The notes under the pieces: model-generated
The model's database searches: none
The model's input: only the letters and a program-made list of their open reading frames with translations
What the model was told of the DNA's origin: nothing
Virus record (IMG/VR): IMGVR_UViG_3300040788_000016
Coordinates: 1-30,122 of that record
Source of the DNA: a virus
Length of the DNA stretch: 30,122 nucleotides
Direction: 5' to 3' (one strand)
Shown here: positions 22,837-28,316 of the stretch, one piece after another
How positions within the stretch are numbered: position 1 is the stretch's first letter
Layout of the letters: each line of letters starts with the position of its first letter
Made by a program: the position numbers and the translations under genes

Positions 22837-24587
22837 CAGTCACCGCCCTCATTATATAGATCGCCGGCGGCATACACCGACTCGAACGCTGGAGCCGGAG
22901 CCTCGGCCTGAAGCTCGTCGCGATCCTCCGCGTAGGCCGAGTAGACGCTGGTGAAGCTGGGGTCGGCCAGGCCGAAGCGGGCGGCGTGGACCGCCATGAC
23001 CGCCGCCACAGCGGCGTCGATCCGCCCCCCGCTCTTGGCCTTATTGAGCGTGAGGTTCTCGCGGTGGTCCTGGGCGGCGACAGCGTTGGCGATCTGCCAC
23101 GTCAGCACCGGGTGGCCGCCATGGGCGATCTTGCCCTTGTACGCGAGCCGCTTGAGTTCTTTGGTGGCGGGACTGATCGAGTAGCCCTGCCGCACCTTGG
23201 TGACCTCGATGCCCAGCTTCGCCAGCTGCTGACTCACCGCCTCGGCATTCCAGGGGTCGACGGCGAGCTCGCGGATGCTGAAGCGCTCGTGCAGCTGGGC
23301 GATGTCGTCGATGACCTGCTCGTAGTCAACCACATCGCCTGGCGTCAGCGTCATCAGCCCTGCATCGTGCCAGGCTCGATAGGGCGCCTGGTCTTCGCGT
23401 TCGCCGTCCGCCGCCCGAGCCTGGGGCAGGTAGACCAGTGGGTGCAGGCCCAGCCACTGGTCGTCATCCGGGTCGGCGAACGCAAGGACCAGGGCGGTGG
23501 TGTCGGTTGTGCTGGACAGGTCGAGCCCCGCGTAGCACGGCCGGCCCTCCATCGCCTCAAGGTCCACCGGGGCGCTACATCCCCGCCAACGATCGGCGGG
23601 GATGTATGCATCCGCGGCGTCGGCCCAGATGTTCAGCCGCAGCCGCTTGAACGCCGACAGCCGGACCGGATCGGCTACCGCCCGCTCCGCCTCGGCCCGG
23701 AAGTCCGCCACGTCGAGGATGGTTCCCAGTGACGGGTTGGCCTGGTACCACTGCGCCTCGTCCAGCGGGTCGGCGTCGTGATCCGCCTCGTAGATGACCG
23801 GTAGGTACGAGAGGTCCACATGCTGGCTGTCCCTGACCTTGCGGGCGTAGCGGTACTCCCGGCCGCACGGCGTTTCAAGGGCGGAGCCGGCGGTGGTGAT
23901 GATGATCGTCAGCGGATCATCGCGGGCCGCTCCGCTGTACTCCAGGGCGTCGATCAAATCGCTGTTCTGAAAGCGGTGCAGCTCGTCGATGATGACCGCC
24001 GAGGCGTCGAACCCGTCGCCGCTCTTGGCGTCTCGGGACAGCGCCGAATAGAAGCCGGCGCCCTTGGCCAGCGTGATGCGCTTCGTCGAATCGAGCGGCT
24101 CCAGGTGCTTGGCGACCGCCGGCGACTGGCGGACCATCGCCGCCGCCGCCCGGTAGAGGATGCCCGCCTGGTCCCGGCTGGTGGCGGCGCTATAGACCTC
24201 GGGCGAAGGCTCGCCGTCGCCCAGCAAGAGATAGAGAGAGAGGCCCGCCAGCAGCTGCGTCTTGCCGTTTTTCTTCGGCACCTGAATGTATGCCTTCCGG
24301 TATCGACGCCGGCCCTCATCATCGACCCATCCGAACAGCGGGCCGATGATCCGCTCCCACTGCCACGCCTGCAGCATGAACGGCTTGCCCGCGAACCGCT
24401 TGCCACTGGTCAGGACGAGGAACCGCTCGAAGAACTGCCGAACCCGCTCGGCCCGCTCGATGTCGAACCGATAGCCGGCCAGCACCGCGAGGCGGTCAGC
24501 TTCGTCGCAGACCCACGCCGACCACCCCTCGGCCTCGATCCGGGGCAGGTGGTCACGCTCGAACTCGGCGGTCTGCTCAGGGGTCAT
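22836..24587 (-). CDS. terL: Terminase large subunit
   Basis: A 583-residue packaging motor. The ATPase domain has Walker A VPKKNGKT (103-110) and Walker B AVIIDE (197-202). The C-terminal RNase H-like nuclease has GLDLS with Asp356, VDPWN with Asp444 and GRIDAAVAAV with Asp524, so the three metal-binding acids are all present. The family is HK97-type TerL. The start overlaps the TerS stop as ATGA and the end overlaps the portal start as TGATG. It cuts concatemeric DNA and drives it into the prohead. Confidence 0.95.
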   Translation of the reverse strand: MTPEQTAEFERDHLPRIEAEGWSAWVCDEADRLAVLAGYRFDIERAERVRQFFERFLVLTSGKRFAGKPFMLQAWQWERIIGPLFGWVDDEGRRRYRKAYIQVPKKNGKTQLLAGLSLYLLLGDGEPSPEVYSAATSRDQAGILYRAAAAMVRQSPAVAKHLEPLDSTKRITLAKGAGFYSALSRDAKSGDGFDASAVIIDELHRFQNSDLIDALEYSGAARDDPLTIIITTAGSALETPCGREYRYARKVRDSQHVDLSYLPVIYEADHDADPLDEAQWYQANPSLGTILDVADFRAEAERAVADPVRLSAFKRLRLNIWADAADAYIPADRWRGCSAPVDLEAMEGRPCYAGLDLSSTTDTTALVLAFADPDDDQWLGLHPLVYLPQARAADGEREDQAPYRAWHDAGLMTLTPGDVVDYEQVIDDIAQLHERFSIRELAVDPWNAEAVSQQLAKLGIEVTKVRQGYSISPATKELKRLAYKGKIAHGGHPVLTWQIANAVAAQDHRENLTLNKAKSGGRIDAAVAAVMAVHAARFGLADPSFTSVYSAYAEDRDELQAEAPAPAFESVYAAGDLYNEGGD

Positions 24588-25048
24588 TTAGCGAGCTTCA
24601 GGAAGTTGGCGAGGTCGTCTTGCTTCTCGGTCGTCTTGACCTCGATCCGGCTGCGGGCGGACGGGTTCATCCCCAGCGACTGCTCCAGCCGCTGAAGCTC
24701 GGCCCCGAGGTCTCGGGCGATGGCAACGTACGGCGAGGTTCGCACGCCACCCTGGGCACCCTCCACGGTGTCGCCGGCCCGCTCCAGCATCTGCACCGAC
24801 TGACGCCAGCGAACCCATGAGGTGCAGTAGCGGGCGAGGGCGTTGGCGTCGATGGTGCCGAGCACGCCCATCTCGCCCAGCAGCGTCGCGAGGCGGTCGA
24901 ACTCCCGCGAAGCGTCGTCGGTGAGCCAGTCGGGGCAGGCGGGCCGACCTGCGGCCGTCGGCTCGTTCGCGGGGGCACGGTCTGCCCGGTAGGTCCCCTG
25001 CGCCTTCTTGACCGCGGTGGGCTTTGGTTTTGGTCCTCGTGCTCCCAT
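24584..25048 (-). CDS. terS: Terminase small subunit, P27 family
   Basis: A 154-residue protein starting MGARGPKPKPTAVKKAQGT, the standard opening of P27-type small terminases, followed by CPDWLTDDASREFDRLATLL and a helical C-terminus ending FLKLAK. The ATG at 25048 was chosen because it has AGGGG about 8 bases upstream and matches the family start; an upstream TTG adds seven residues without support. TerS recognises the packaging site. The 121-base gap upstream contains a palindrome and a stem-loop that may be part of a cos or pac site. Confidence 0.92.
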   Translation of the reverse strand: MGARGPKPKPTAVKKAQGTYRADRAPANEPTAAGRPACPDWLTDDASREFDRLATLLGEMGVLGTIDANALARYCTSWVRWRQSVQMLERAGDTVEGAQGGVRTSPYVAIARDLGAELQRLEQSLGMNPSARSRIEVKTTEKQDDLANFLKLAK

Positions 25049-25061
25049 GGGGTGCCCCTGT

Positions 25062-25089
25062 TTTGACAACCATGGTTGTCAGTTCTGCG
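25062..25089. repeat. Imperfect 28-base repeat, copy B (upstream of terS)
   Basis: It contains the perfect 16-base palindrome GACAACCATGGTTGTC at 25065-25080. It is 14 bases upstream of the terS ATG. Copy A is inside the portal gene. Candidate binding site for a terminase or regulator. Confidence 0.55.
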
Positions 25090-25135
25090 GTCAGCCCAAA
25101 CCCGACGACGCGGGAAATTCATTGGGGCTATCGGT

Positions 25136-25165
25136 GTCCAGACACACGCTCTTGGCGATCTGGAC
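25136..25165. repeat. Stem-loop in the HNH-terS gap
   Basis: GTCCAGA (25136-25142) and TCTGGAC (25159-25165) are perfect 7-base arms around a 16-base loop, just after the HNH stop. No T-run follows. In HK97-like phages the cos region lies near this spot; an association is possible but not shown. Confidence 0.35.
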
Positions 25166-25169
25166 CCCC

Positions 25170-25619
25170 CTACCTGCTCGTCCCGCTGCCTCGGCCACCA
25201 CCTGCACCATCGGCAGCTGCTACGCCTCCCAGAGGGGCTCTCGCCGCTCCTGCGTCGAGCCCTGCGAACATCGGCCCTGTGCCGACGCCCCGCCTGGCCA
25301 TCCGCTCGATTTCGTAGTGGCAGGCCTCGCACAGCGGTGCAAGGTTGCTCCAGTCGTGGGCGAGGTCCGGTCGGTCGATGACGGGCTGGATGTGGTGGAC
25401 GTGCGCGGCGGCGGGCGGGGTGTGGCCGTGGAGCTTGAGCGGGTCGCAGCACAGCGGGTGGTGGGCGAGCACTCGGCGGCGGGTGTCTCGCCAGCGGCGA
25501 TGGCCGCGGATGGCCCTTGCTCGCTTGGCCCGATCGCTGTCCTGCCCCTGCGACCACGGGCGACGAGTGAGGCCGGCGGCGATGCGGCGTTGGTACTGGC
25601 TGGGTGTCCTAAGCGGCAT
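25170..25619 (-). CDS. HNH endonuclease next to the terminase
   Basis: A 149-residue protein. RWRDTRRRVLAHHPLC is followed by HVHHIQPVIDRPDLAHDWSN and LAPLCEACHYEIE, the HNH finger with Cys pairs. HNH proteins encoded beside TerS are a known component of HK97-like packaging systems and are needed for cos cleavage in several phages. The ATG at 25619 overlaps the end of the sigma-factor gene by 11 bases. The C-terminus is Gly/Ala-rich and of unknown role. Confidence 0.85.
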   Translation of the reverse strand: MPLRTPSQYQRRIAAGLTRRPWSQGQDSDRAKRARAIRGHRRWRDTRRRVLAHHPLCCDPLKLHGHTPPAAAHVHHIQPVIDRPDLAHDWSNLAPLCEACHYEIERMARRGVGTGPMFAGLDAGAARAPLGGVAAADGAGGGRGSGTSR

Positions 25620-26283
25620 CGAGCATCCCCCGCAGCTTGGCACAGGCCTGTCGCCACCGGTAGCTGATGGTGGGCGCGGCGACCCCGAGGTGGCCCGCGA
25701 CCTCTCGCTGGCTCCAACCCTGCAGTCCGTGCATCTCCACGACGACTCGCTCGTGAGCGGGCAACCGGCTCACCGCGTCCTGCAGGTCCAGGTCGGCATG
25801 CATGGCGGGGGCGGCTGGCTCGGCAAGGAGTTCGCCCGGCGGGGCCGCTCTTGTCGAGCCGAGCCACCACCGCCGGCGACGCCGCGGCACGTCCACTTCG
25901 TCGAGCACTTCCTCCTCGGTGGGTTCGCGGTGATGCTCTTGTCGCAATCGCTCCGCGGCGGACTGGCAGACCTTGGCCTGATGCCTCGACACGCGGGCGA
26001 GCACGTCGGCGTCCCGCATGCAATCTTGGATCGCGTGCCTGATCTTGCATCGGGCGTAGTCGGCGAACGTGAGGCCGCGGGTCGGGTCGTAGTTGTCTAC
26101 AGCCGCCAGCAGGCCGACGGCGGCAGCTTGGGCCAAATCGTCGGCGTCCACGGCGCCCCCGCAACGGGCGGCGTCTCGTCGGGCTTGGTAGCGGATCATC
26201 CCCAGGGCGGCGACGACGACGGCGTTGCGGGACCCGTCGCCGGTTGCATACAGAGCATAGGCGGCATCGACATCAAGGCTCAT
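25609..26283 (-). CDS. Sigma-70 family RNA polymerase sigma factor
   Basis: A 224-residue sigma factor. Region 2 contains DADDLAQAAAVGLLAAVDNY, then DPTRGLTFADYARCKIRHAI, the canonical core-binding and -10 helices. A region-3-like segment (REPTEEEVLDEVDV) and region 4 (SRLPAHERVVVEMHGLQG, then WSQREVAGHLGVAAPTISYR) follow. It is closer to FliA/SigB-type than to ECF factors because of the region-3 segment. The ATG at 26283 overlaps the PEP-CTERM gene's end by 11 bases. Its place just ahead of the packaging genes suggests late-gene activation; that is inference. Confidence 0.87.
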   Translation of the reverse strand: MSLDVDAAYALYATGDGSRNAVVVAALGMIRYQARRDAARCGGAVDADDLAQAAAVGLLAAVDNYDPTRGLTFADYARCKIRHAIQDCMRDADVLARVSRHQAKVCQSAAERLRQEHHREPTEEEVLDEVDVPRRRRRWWLGSTRAAPPGELLAEPAAPAMHADLDLQDAVSRLPAHERVVVEMHGLQGWSQREVAGHLGVAAPTISYRWRQACAKLRGMLDAA

Positions 26284-26905
26284 GGGTCGGACTCCTCGCA
26301 CGTCGCCGAGCCAGACACGGGGCCACGGCTACCGCAACCATCGCCAGCGAGCCGGGCTCGGGGATCACCTGCAAGTAGCTCACGTCGTAAGCCGGACGCA
26401 GCTGTGGGTGATTCGGCGTCCGCGGCGTGTGGTCGTCGTACTGGGCGAGGATGTTCAGTTGCCACAGGCCGGGCTCGGGCAAGCTGAACACCGCCTCGTA
26501 AGTCTGCGCGTCGCCCCGGTTCTCGATGAGCGAGAACGCCGGCGCGCCGAGAAAGGCATTGGTCCGCAGCCATGGGTCGGCGGGGTCCACGAGGCTGGCA
26601 TAGCCGTGGAAGTGGCCGGCGTTGGCGACGCGAGTTCCGTCGGCGTAGTCGGCAGGCAGACTTGTCGCGGCGTCCGGCTGGTACAGCAGCCCCGCCACGT
26701 CAAAGCGGATCGCCACATGCCCCGCCGGTACCACCGACCCCAGCACCGCCGGGTCGATGCGGAGGCGGACCGGGTCAACATCCGCCTCGGACGGGGCCAC
26801 ATCGGCGAACGGACCCGGCGACTCGCCGTAGACCGGAACCGCAGCCCCCTGGTCGGCCGCAAGAATCGCCATCACGCCCAGCACTGCATAGATCGTCCAT
26901 CGCAT
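26273..26905 (-). CDS. Exported PEP-CTERM protein
   Basis: A 210-residue protein. MRWTIYAVLGVMAILAADQG is a signal peptide, cleaved near GAAVPV. The body is beta-rich. The C-terminus has the three-part sorting signal: VIPEPGS, then a hydrophobic helix AMVAVAVAPCL, then ARRRAR. PEP-CTERM proteins are processed by exosortase and are typical of Planctomycetota and other exopolysaccharide-forming bacteria. The ATG at 26905 has GAGGAG about 10 bases upstream. It lies inside the prophage late operon, on the same strand, so it is probably a moron gene acquired from a host. Confidence 0.8.
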   Translation of the reverse strand: MRWTIYAVLGVMAILAADQGAAVPVYGESPGPFADVAPSEADVDPVRLRIDPAVLGSVVPAGHVAIRFDVAGLLYQPDAATSLPADYADGTRVANAGHFHGYASLVDPADPWLRTNAFLGAPAFSLIENRGDAQTYEAVFSLPEPGLWQLNILAQYDDHTPRTPNHPQLRPAYDVSYLQVIPEPGSLAMVAVAVAPCLARRRARSPTHEP

Positions 26906-26925: not shown

Positions 26926-27378
26926 TCAGTCGGTTGCCGGCGGTTGATATCGCGGGCGTGTGTAAGGCTGGTTGTTGTTGCGGGGGTTGGGCACTGCCTC
27001 GCCGGGGTTGAGCCGCTGGAGCTCGGACGCCCACCCCGTGAACGCGGTCAACGTGAGCCTGTCGTCACTGCGAGCCTCGGCCGCCATCGCCACCGCCTCG
27101 ATCTGGCCGGACAGGCCCGACACCTGCTCCCGCAGCCGGGCAATCTGGTGACTGGTCGTCCGCTGCTCGTCCACAGCGTCCGCAAGCGATCCAACCGCTT
27201 CGGACAGCTCGGTCATGTCCCGCTGCAGATGGTCGATCCGTGTCACCGCGTCAGCCTGCTGGTCGGTGGTCTGGTCAACCCACTGGGCACTGGCGAACAC
27301 AACCGCAGCCAGCCCCGCGATCCCCTTAAATCCGATGCTGCTCCAGGCATTGATTGTCCCGGCGTCGGGCATGGGCAT
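26926..27378 (-). CDS. N-terminal TM plus coiled-coil protein (possible i-spanin or holin)
   Basis: A 150-residue protein starting MPMPDAGTINAWSS. One hydrophobic segment (GFKGIAGLAAVVFASAQWV, about 15-34) is followed by a long heptad-patterned helix (RIDHLQRDMTELSEAVGSLA and on, about 45-105) and a Pro/Asn-rich tail. One N-terminal TM with a periplasmic coiled coil is the layout of the inner-membrane spanin (Rz-like). It lies directly downstream of a gene with a nested lipoprotein, the expected partner. A holin or a lysis accessory role is possible too. ATG at 27378 chosen over 27372 without RBS support. Confidence 0.6.
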   Translation of the reverse strand: MPMPDAGTINAWSSIGFKGIAGLAAVVFASAQWVDQTTDQQADAVTRIDHLQRDMTELSEAVGSLADAVDEQRTTSHQIARLREQVSGLSGQIEAVAMAAEARSDDRLTLTAFTGWASELQRLNPGEAVPNPRNNNQPYTRPRYQPPATD

Positions 27379-27394: not shown

Positions 27395-27619
27395 TCACGG
27401 CAGCACCCCCACCGGCAGGTCGAGCACCGCGTCAGTGGTGTTGGTCTGATCGGCGGCGACGCCCTCAACGCTCACCACGTCGGAGTCGTCCCATCGGATT
27501 GTGTTGTGGTCGCCCCAGACGTTGACCGCCCGCGGCGTGAGTGGCGAGGCGTTGCACCCGGCGAGCAGCAGCCAGGGCAGGAGCACTGCCGCTCCCAGCA
27601 GCCTCGGCCGGCCGACCAC
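27395..27619 (-). CDS. Nested in-frame lipoprotein (candidate o-spanin)
   Basis: Within the hydrolase frame a GTG at 27619 starts VVGRPRLLGAAVLLPWLLLA followed by GC: a short basic N-region, a hydrophobic core and the lipobox LAGC with Cys22. A mature part of about 52 residues follows. AGGT lies 7 bases upstream of the GTG, which supports internal initiation. Small lipoproteins paired with a TM coiled-coil protein form Rz/Rz1-type spanins; the partner candidate is the next gene. That this product is made is inference; the same residues could instead be a C-terminal anchor of the hydrolase. Confidence 0.45.
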   Translation of the reverse strand: MVGRPRLLGAAVLLPWLLLAGCNASPLTPRAVNVWGDHNTIRWDDSDVVSVEGVAADQTNTTDAVLDLPVGVLP

Positions 27620-28225
27620 CGGCTTGACCTGACGCGGGGCAGACAGGCACCGCAGGGCGGCCACATCCCGCGGATGCATCTCGTGAGCCTTGGTAGTCCC
27701 ACGCAGCCGGCCGATGGCGATCAGGGCGGCGACGTAGCCAGCAGAGCAAAACGTCTTGTGCTTGCGGGGCGGTCGCTCGCCAAGCATCCGGCTCATGAAC
27801 GCCGCGGCCTTGTCGTAGCCGACCGCCTCGTCGTGAGCGACCTGCCACCACCAGCGCCACCGCTGGAGTTCCGAATCAGTCAGGGTGGGCAGCGGGCGGC
27901 AGACCCAGACCTTGGGCTGGTGATTTAGCCAGATGTCCAGTGGTTCAGCCCGGACGCCGACTCGAGGCTTGCCCGTGTGATGGTCAGGTCGCTGCGTCCC
28001 GCTGGTGACCTCGTAGACGAGCAGGTCACCCCGCCGGCTGCGGCAGAGCGTCGCGACGTGGCTGTAGCGACTGCAGGTGCCCCAGCGGATCAGGCGGCTG
28101 ATCCATGAGTCGCCGGCGGTCAGCAGGCAGTCACCCTCGCACAAGGTGACGCCCGGCACGACTGCAGCGCATCCTGCAGCGCGAGCGTCCTGATATGCGT
28201 GCTCATGGTCTTGTGGGGACTGCAC
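27395..28225 (-). CDS. Permuted NlpC/P60 (YiiX-like) cysteine hydrolase, candidate endolysin
   Basis: A 276-residue protein from a GTG at 28225; a second GTG at 28159 is an alternative. EGDCLLTAGDSWISRLIRWG then RYSHVATL (His56), with YEVT (Glu72), and later KTFCSAGYVAAL (Cys160) give the His-before-Cys order of permuted papain-like NlpC/P60 enzymes. These often cleave amide bonds in cell-wall peptides or lipids. It is a plausible lysis enzyme from its place beside a spanin-like gene. From residue 203 the protein contains a lipoprotein-like signal (separate entry), so the C-terminal 74 residues may be a separately translated product, a membrane anchor, or both. Confidence 0.7.
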   Translation of the reverse strand: MQSPQDHEHAYQDARAAGCAAVVPGVTLCEGDCLLTAGDSWISRLIRWGTCSRYSHVATLCRSRRGDLLVYEVTSGTQRPDHHTGKPRVGVRAEPLDIWLNHQPKVWVCRPLPTLTDSELQRWRWWWQVAHDEAVGYDKAAAFMSRMLGERPPRKHKTFCSAGYVAALIAIGRLRGTTKAHEMHPRDVAALRCLSAPRQVKPVVGRPRLLGAAVLLPWLLLAGCNASPLTPRAVNVWGDHNTIRWDDSDVVSVEGVAADQTNTTDAVLDLPVGVLP

Positions 28226-28242: not shown

Positions 28243-28316
28243 TGGGCCGTACTGGACTCGAACCAGTGACCTCGTCGATGTCAACGACGCGCGCTAGCCA
28301 GCTGCGCCAACGGCCC
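28243..28316 (-). tRNA. tRNA-Val (anticodon GAC); probable prophage attachment site
   Basis: The minus strand folds into a full cloverleaf. The 7-bp acceptor stem is GGGCCGT with ACGGCCC, the D stem GCGC/GCGC, and the anticodon stem CGTCG/CGACG around loop TTGACAT with anticodon GAC; the T arm holds TTCGAGT. The discriminator is A and no CCA is encoded. The 3' end faces the prophage, 18 bases from its first gene, so the 3' half is the likely attB core. No second copy of this 3' half is visible in the window. Confidence 0.93.

Follow-up and report, generated by a model that had tools for sequence, protein, structure and literature searches.

A predicted lipoprotein module in frame with a C92/YiiX-like enzyme in a siphovirus-type prophage

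Introduction

Can a phage lipoprotein of the cell envelope be encoded within the reading frame of the enzyme that precedes it? This question is raised by one gene in IMG/VR record IMGVR_UViG_3300040788_000016, of which a stretch of 30,122 bases, hereafter the window, was analysed. The initial annotation described an endolysin-like gene containing an in-frame lipoprotein made by internal initiation, and regarded this lipoprotein and the product of the next gene as a spanin pair. The explanation favoured here, tentatively, is that the gene is a one-frame fusion of a C92/YiiX-like enzyme and a small lipoprotein, which in related phages would correspond to two adjoining genes. The arrangement is real and somewhat unusual, and it rests on one record.

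The prophage and its gene order

The window is a siphovirus-type prophage with one end at a tRNA gene.

28243 to 28316, minus strand: tRNA-Val(gac), 18 bp upstream of the open reading frame (ORF) 28225-27395; probable attachment site
24584 to 26301, minus strand: downstream late genes, with a sigma factor (25609-26301), HNH (25170-25643) and TerS (24584-25060)

The minus-strand genes begin after the tRNA-Val and follow the order enzyme ORF, transmembrane (TM)/coiled-coil gene, PEP-CTERM-like protein, sigma factor, HNH, TerS and TerL, continuing with portal, S78 protease, HK97-type capsid and tail genes. Host-like Gfo/Idh and AraC-type genes occur beyond the tRNA, on its right. The 58% identity of the Gfo/Idh protein to planctomycete ZRK32, together with the host-like genes beyond the tRNA, indicates a prophage, probably of a planctomycete host. 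The window contains no repeat of the tRNA-Val 3' end that would be a second att copy, and the other prophage end is missing.

The enzyme/lipoprotein ORF has the orientation of the late genes and is located just upstream of HNH-TerS-TerL. This position agrees with the lysis-type setting that had been proposed for the locus, as do relatives with the order enzyme, lipoprotein, TM/coiled-coil protein, and a C92-like gene beside a GH24 gene elsewhere (see below).

Two further genes of this region are recorded here for their own sake. The phage sigma-70 factor (25609-26301, minus strand) adjoins HNH and TerS, and the related phage L123 has one at the same place. Just below the TM/coiled-coil gene, in the prophage late region, 26273-26905 (minus strand) encodes a secreted protein; its PEP-CTERM-like sorting signal is weak.

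The predicted in-frame lipoprotein module

27395 to 27619, minus strand: in-frame lipoprotein module, 74 codons from the internal GTG 27619 to the shared stop
27557 to 27619, minus strand: predicted lipoprotein signal MVGRPRLLGAAVLLPWLLLAG (rule-based scan)
27554 to 27556, minus strand: predicted lipobox Cys (LAGC), codon 224 of the ORF (rule-based scan)

Within the 276-codon ORF 28225-27395, codon 203 is a GTG (27619-27617) that opens the sequence MVGRPRLLGAAVLLPWLLLAGC in the same frame. The module reads MVGRPRLLGAAVLLPWLLLAG/CNAS... up to the shared TGA at 27397-27395, and the encoded lipoprotein of 74 residues would have a mature part of 53 residues with four prolines. Arginines precede the hydrophobic core of the signal, consistent with an N-in orientation.

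The scan that detected the signal is strict and demands a start codon, a basic n-region, a hydrophobic core and a lipobox. Across the six frames of the 30 kb it returned two matches, this module and one antisense, while 0.15 are expected per 30 kb from an order-3 Markov model. When the codons of the ORF were shuffled, a lipoprotein signal arose in 13 of 20,000 cases, and it did so in 7 of 20,000 random genes with phage codons. The lipoprotein signal in the ORF is above chance, and the earlier claim of such a signal at the internal GTG is confirmed, as are its coordinates. By the same scan, one partner of the putative pair carries the SPII signal expected in two-component spanins.

Codon usage between 27619 and 27395 is phage-typical in the ORF frame, with a GC3 of 0.88 and a log-odds of +0.11, versus -0.32 and -0.50 in the other frames. 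No shift in codon bias is seen where enzyme and lipoprotein join, and this continuity indicates that the module is coding sequence in the ORF frame.

Searches detected no relatives of the lipoprotein. The single copy, the lack of a homologue and the ordinary Shine-Dalgarno (SD) site would suit a module that is no lipoprotein, in which the hydrophobic segment only anchors the C-terminus of the enzyme in the membrane and LAGC arose by coincidence; this is improbable, because a start, basic n-region, core and lipobox would occur jointly by chance at about 6e-4 and lipoprotein genes directly follow the enzyme gene in relatives.

A C92/YiiX-type enzyme instead of an endolysin

27395 to 28159, minus strand: predicted C92/YiiX-type (permuted NlpC/P60, papain-like) enzyme with in-frame C-terminal lipoprotein module, by homology to P0003 (Pfam C92) and the H56/E72/C160 spacing
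28058 to 28060, minus strand: predicted catalytic His H56 (YSHVA), by alignment with the BcPPNE triad His49/Glu64/Cys154 (PMC3142127)
28010 to 28012, minus strand: predicted third catalytic residue Glu E72 (YEVT), by alignment with the BcPPNE triad
27746 to 27748, minus strand: predicted catalytic Cys C160 (FCSAGYV), by alignment with the BcPPNE triad

The ORF stays open to GTG 28225, and its first 22 codons (28225-28160) look non-coding, with a GC3 of 0.50; the enzyme therefore probably begins at GTG 28159. By sequence comparison it is a divergent member of the C92/YiiX-type permuted NlpC/P60 proteins. It matches the Phycisphaerae protein P0003 with an E-value of 3.4e-5 in the genome search and 1.7e-6 in a small set, and P0003 passes the Pfam cut-off for Peptidase_C92, the YaeF/YiiX permuted papain-like enzymes; homology to the family is thus traced via P0003. 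The permuted His-polar-Cys triad of the family is present as H56-E72-C160, as judged against BcPPNE. Direct family matches of the enzyme comprise only phrog_1128 (E = 3.5e-7) and NF007458 (E = 0.16). An AlphaFold model of the ORF from the single sequence has a pLDDT of 36.6, which makes it useless for the papain-like fold, and a PDB search by sequence with the ORF returned nothing.

PHROG 1128 is titled enoyl-CoA hydratase/carnithine racemase-like and contains C92/YiiX-type proteins. The title was judged a misannotation, apparently a propagated one, since a Phycisphaerae protein that matches the family at 1.9e-30 carries C92-type motifs.

The endolysin-like identity given in the initial annotation was rejected. 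The enzyme contains no known muralytic domain; it has no Pfam match at E<1, the muralytic family PF00959 has no match in the whole record, and the protein is C92/YiiX-like, a family whose studied relatives act on lipids. YiiX carries a bound fatty acid and lipid-type substrates have been argued for it (PMC3142127), a permuted NlpC/P60 relative is a phospholipase (PMC12994826), and LnsA, likewise a permuted NlpC/P60 enzyme, is involved in the N-acylation of lipoproteins (PMC7387801).

In C92 relatives the chain continues for 13-27 residues past a conserved P-x-D motif; the corresponding end point in the ORF is codons about 198-212, at the internal GTG. This finding suggests that the enzyme core ends about where the internal GTG stands.

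The putative internal start

27627 to 27630, minus strand: AGGT, a weak Shine-Dalgarno-like site, no better than background

The AGGT noted in the initial annotation is indeed present 7 bases upstream of GTG 27619, but its anti-SD pairing of -3.7 kcal/mol is not above chance, as 44% of 149 internal start codons pair equally well. As evidence of a start it was therefore rejected. Many structural genes of the prophage have ribosome sites much stronger than that at GTG 27619.

Gram-positive phages often have in-frame internal translation starts (iTSSs) within their lysis enzymes, and some of these starts have been verified with weak predicted initiation (PMC9430671); Ms6 LysA is an example of a verified iTSS with a low predicted initiation rate (PMC9430671). 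When the locus is compared with such genes, the ribosome site at the internal start does not exceed background, and the short product would start at a domain border, as indicated by the alignments of C92 relatives. Use of GTG 27619 as a start is unproven, given the weak SD and no homologue found in frame.

The weak internal SD, the strong lipobox and the lack of an in-frame stop would equally be expected of a single full-length chain, in which the hydrophobic segment is inserted N-in, consistent with the arginines before its core, Lgt modifies Cys224 and LspA cuts before it, to give a membrane-tailed C92-like enzyme and a lipoprotein. Such processing is quite unlikely here, as Lgt and LspA usually act close to the N-terminus and no precedent was found in the literature searched.

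The TM/coiled-coil neighbour

26926 to 27378, minus strand: N-terminal TM and coiled-coil protein, candidate i-spanin or holin-like partner, by hydropathy, heptads and positional equivalents in L119, L123, L124, L159 and L271

The gene that follows (ATG 27378 to 26926) encodes a single N-terminal hydrophobic stretch, with a best 19-residue mean of 1.49, and a heptad region. The earlier description of an N-terminal TM plus coiled coil holds, and the protein has the single N-terminal TM and helical/coiled-coil domain of an adjacent spanin partner. Its net charge of -3 after the TM fits an N-in orientation.

Lipoprotein and TM/coiled-coil protein together have the anatomy of a two-component spanin, with a combined periplasmic length of about 170 residues (53+119), and a spanin pair is plausible from these sequence features, though unproven. 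TM/coiled-coil proteins can also be holins or functionally unassigned proteins, which counts against the spanin reading. Matches of the TM/coiled-coil protein to spanin families are weak (phrog_739, E = 0.074; phrog_89, E = 0.21; Rz-family matches, E 0.01-0.2), searches for its relatives found none, and the lipoprotein has no match to the Rz/Rz1 spanin families. Many true spanins are singletons (PMC6139136).

Comparison with related phages

The TerL of the window was used to find related Phycisphaerae prophages and IMG/VR contigs. The best-matching TerL fragment (51%) is that of L123, which has TM/coiled-coil, HNH and sigma genes upstream of the terminase, where its contig starts. In L119 a lipoprotein gene comes first, then a gene for an enzyme whose sequence shows a phospholipase A2-like CxxHD motif (by eye), and last a TM/coiled-coil gene, adjoining host genes. 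L159 has genes for a papain-like enzyme, a lipoprotein and membrane proteins; Foldseek top matches of the modelled enzyme are cathepsins, at low confidence (pLDDT 50). What is compared in these relatives is gene order and not homology, as the enzymes at this position belong to other families.

Two observations on these relatives stand apart from the argument. The CxxHD motif protein of L119 (8480-8914, minus strand), between the lipoprotein and TM/coiled-coil genes, has no Pfam match. The TerL of the related prophage L121 (1717-4392, minus strand) appears to bear an in-frame intein-like insertion (..KCGKALAVDTPIPTPQGW...MIATHNSELAGG..).

A search with the L159 enzyme identified 42 IMG/VR loci (L229-L270). 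A homologous lipoprotein-like gene directly follows the papain-like enzyme in 42/42, at -3 (most), 0 or -21 bp, with 38 canonical and 4 weaker lipoboxes (ANGC/ADGC); usually the two genes share 4 bases. After the lipoprotein comes a TM gene (42/42) and a TM/coiled-coil gene (37/42); the fetched stretch includes a TerS homologue in 25 loci and TerL in 20. As a side observation, the full cassette of these loci comprises a TM protein of ~190 residues, a papain C1A-like enzyme that Pfam does not recognise, a lipoprotein with CxxCxGxG, TM, TM/coiled-coil, TerS and TerL where the contig reaches.

In L272, found by motif scan, the order is C92-like gene, TM/coiled-coil gene and GH24 lysozyme (by eye), with 4-bp overlaps, and in L271 a TM/coiled-coil gene comes immediately after a C92-like gene. 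The order with the lysozyme puts C92-like enzymes among lysis genes that include a separate endolysin, and no lipoprotein gene intervenes. An enzyme gene that ends before the hydrophobic segment with no lipobox gene after it would have spoken against the initial annotation; the 42/42 loci all have the lipoprotein-like gene, but their enzyme is of another family, and L271 lacks a lipoprotein gene between. The 42 loci and the phage with C92-like, TM/coiled-coil and GH24 genes make the cassette of enzyme, lipoprotein and TM/coiled-coil protein upstream of the terminase a real and recurrent one.

Close relatives of the ORF were found neither by a pattern search of viral and genome contigs, nor by tblastn of phages, nor in 397 Phycisphaerae-class and 392 phylum genomes, where matches were confined to host C92 proteins and chance similarity. 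The in-frame arrangement is accordingly known from one record, and a close homologue of either half was not found.

Since a stop with a short overlap or abutment is kept in 42/42 comparison loci and the window is a single record, the stop between two ordinary adjoining genes could have been lost recently, by mutation in the resident prophage or an assembly base error, and the biology would be that of two coupled genes. This is unlikely, in view of the unbroken codon bias at the junction. That an indel in the assembly had removed the stop was rejected, because the other two frames contain no stop between 27723 and 27474 either. Internal initiation, a polypeptide cut at the lipobox and recent stop loss cannot be told apart by the present data.

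The place of the gene 18 bp from the tRNA-Val, the probable att site, together with C92-like proteins near tail genes of Haemophilus and Moraxella phages and the modification of lipoproteins by the permuted NlpC/P60 enzyme LnsA (PMC7387801), allows another reading: lipoprotein and enzyme could be a lysogenic-conversion pair at the prophage end, serving envelope modification or exclusion, with a TM/coiled-coil protein that is holin-like or an unrelated membrane protein. A minor share of belief belongs to this reading, against which stand the late-gene orientation just upstream of the terminase, the C92-like gene beside a GH24 lysozyme in L272 and the recurrence of the enzyme-lipoprotein-membrane cassette.

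Proposed function and comparison with known systems

According to the fusion that we favour, an enzyme-lipoprotein gene pair of the recurrent kind would have become one reading frame. The lipoprotein would become a product in its own right, with initiation at GTG 27619 as the most likely route and Lgt/LspA processing of the full-length chain as the alternative. It would reach the outer membrane and act jointly with the TM/coiled-coil protein, the two forming a spanin-like, two-component pair that disrupts the envelope. The C92-like enzyme would attack a lipid or lipidated substrate and not act as an endolysin. The literature searched contains no report of host-envelope disruption by Planctomycetota phages, for which the recurrent cassette upstream of the terminase is a concrete candidate. 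Likewise, no report of a lipoprotein encoded in frame inside an enzyme gene was found in the open literature searched.

The putative pair resembles the two-component spanins (lambda Rz/Rz1, P2 LysB/LysC, T4 PseT.3/PseT.2; PMC6139136) in that a small lipoprotein and a single-TM coiled-coil protein are encoded side by side, here upstream of the terminase, and 53+119 residues lie within the reported 62-300 (PMC6139136). It differs in that the lipoprotein precedes the TM protein and shares its frame with an enzyme, and no sequence similarity was found. With the two-polypeptide endolysins of Gram-positive phages and Ms6, made from in-frame internal starts (PMC9430671), the locus would share two in-frame products, a common stop and a short product that begins at a domain border, but in those systems the shorter polypeptide is an endolysin isoform, whereas here it would be a separate exported lipoprotein.

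The C92/YaeF-YiiX enzymes (YiiX, BcPPNE, LnsA, Tox-Act1; PMC3142127, PMC7387801, PMC12994826) share the His-Glu-Cys order and spacing (H56, E72, C160 versus His49, Glu64, Cys154) and the C-terminal P-x-D; unlike them, the present enzyme is encoded by a phage gene, falls below Pfam reporting and carries an in-frame lipoprotein tail. The papain-like enzymes of the L159 group (42 IMG/VR loci) show the same order of enzyme, lipoprotein, TM/coiled-coil, TerS and TerL, but there the enzyme is papain C1A-type, the lipoprotein has a CxxCxGxG region, and the two are separate genes in different frames, divided by a stop. In the 2018 survey, embedded o-spanins are read in frame +1 or -1 relative to the i-spanin (PMC6139136), whereas the lipoprotein described here lies in the frame of the enzyme; a lipoprotein placed in frame within an enzyme gene differs from such out-of-frame nesting and will be missed by gene callers.
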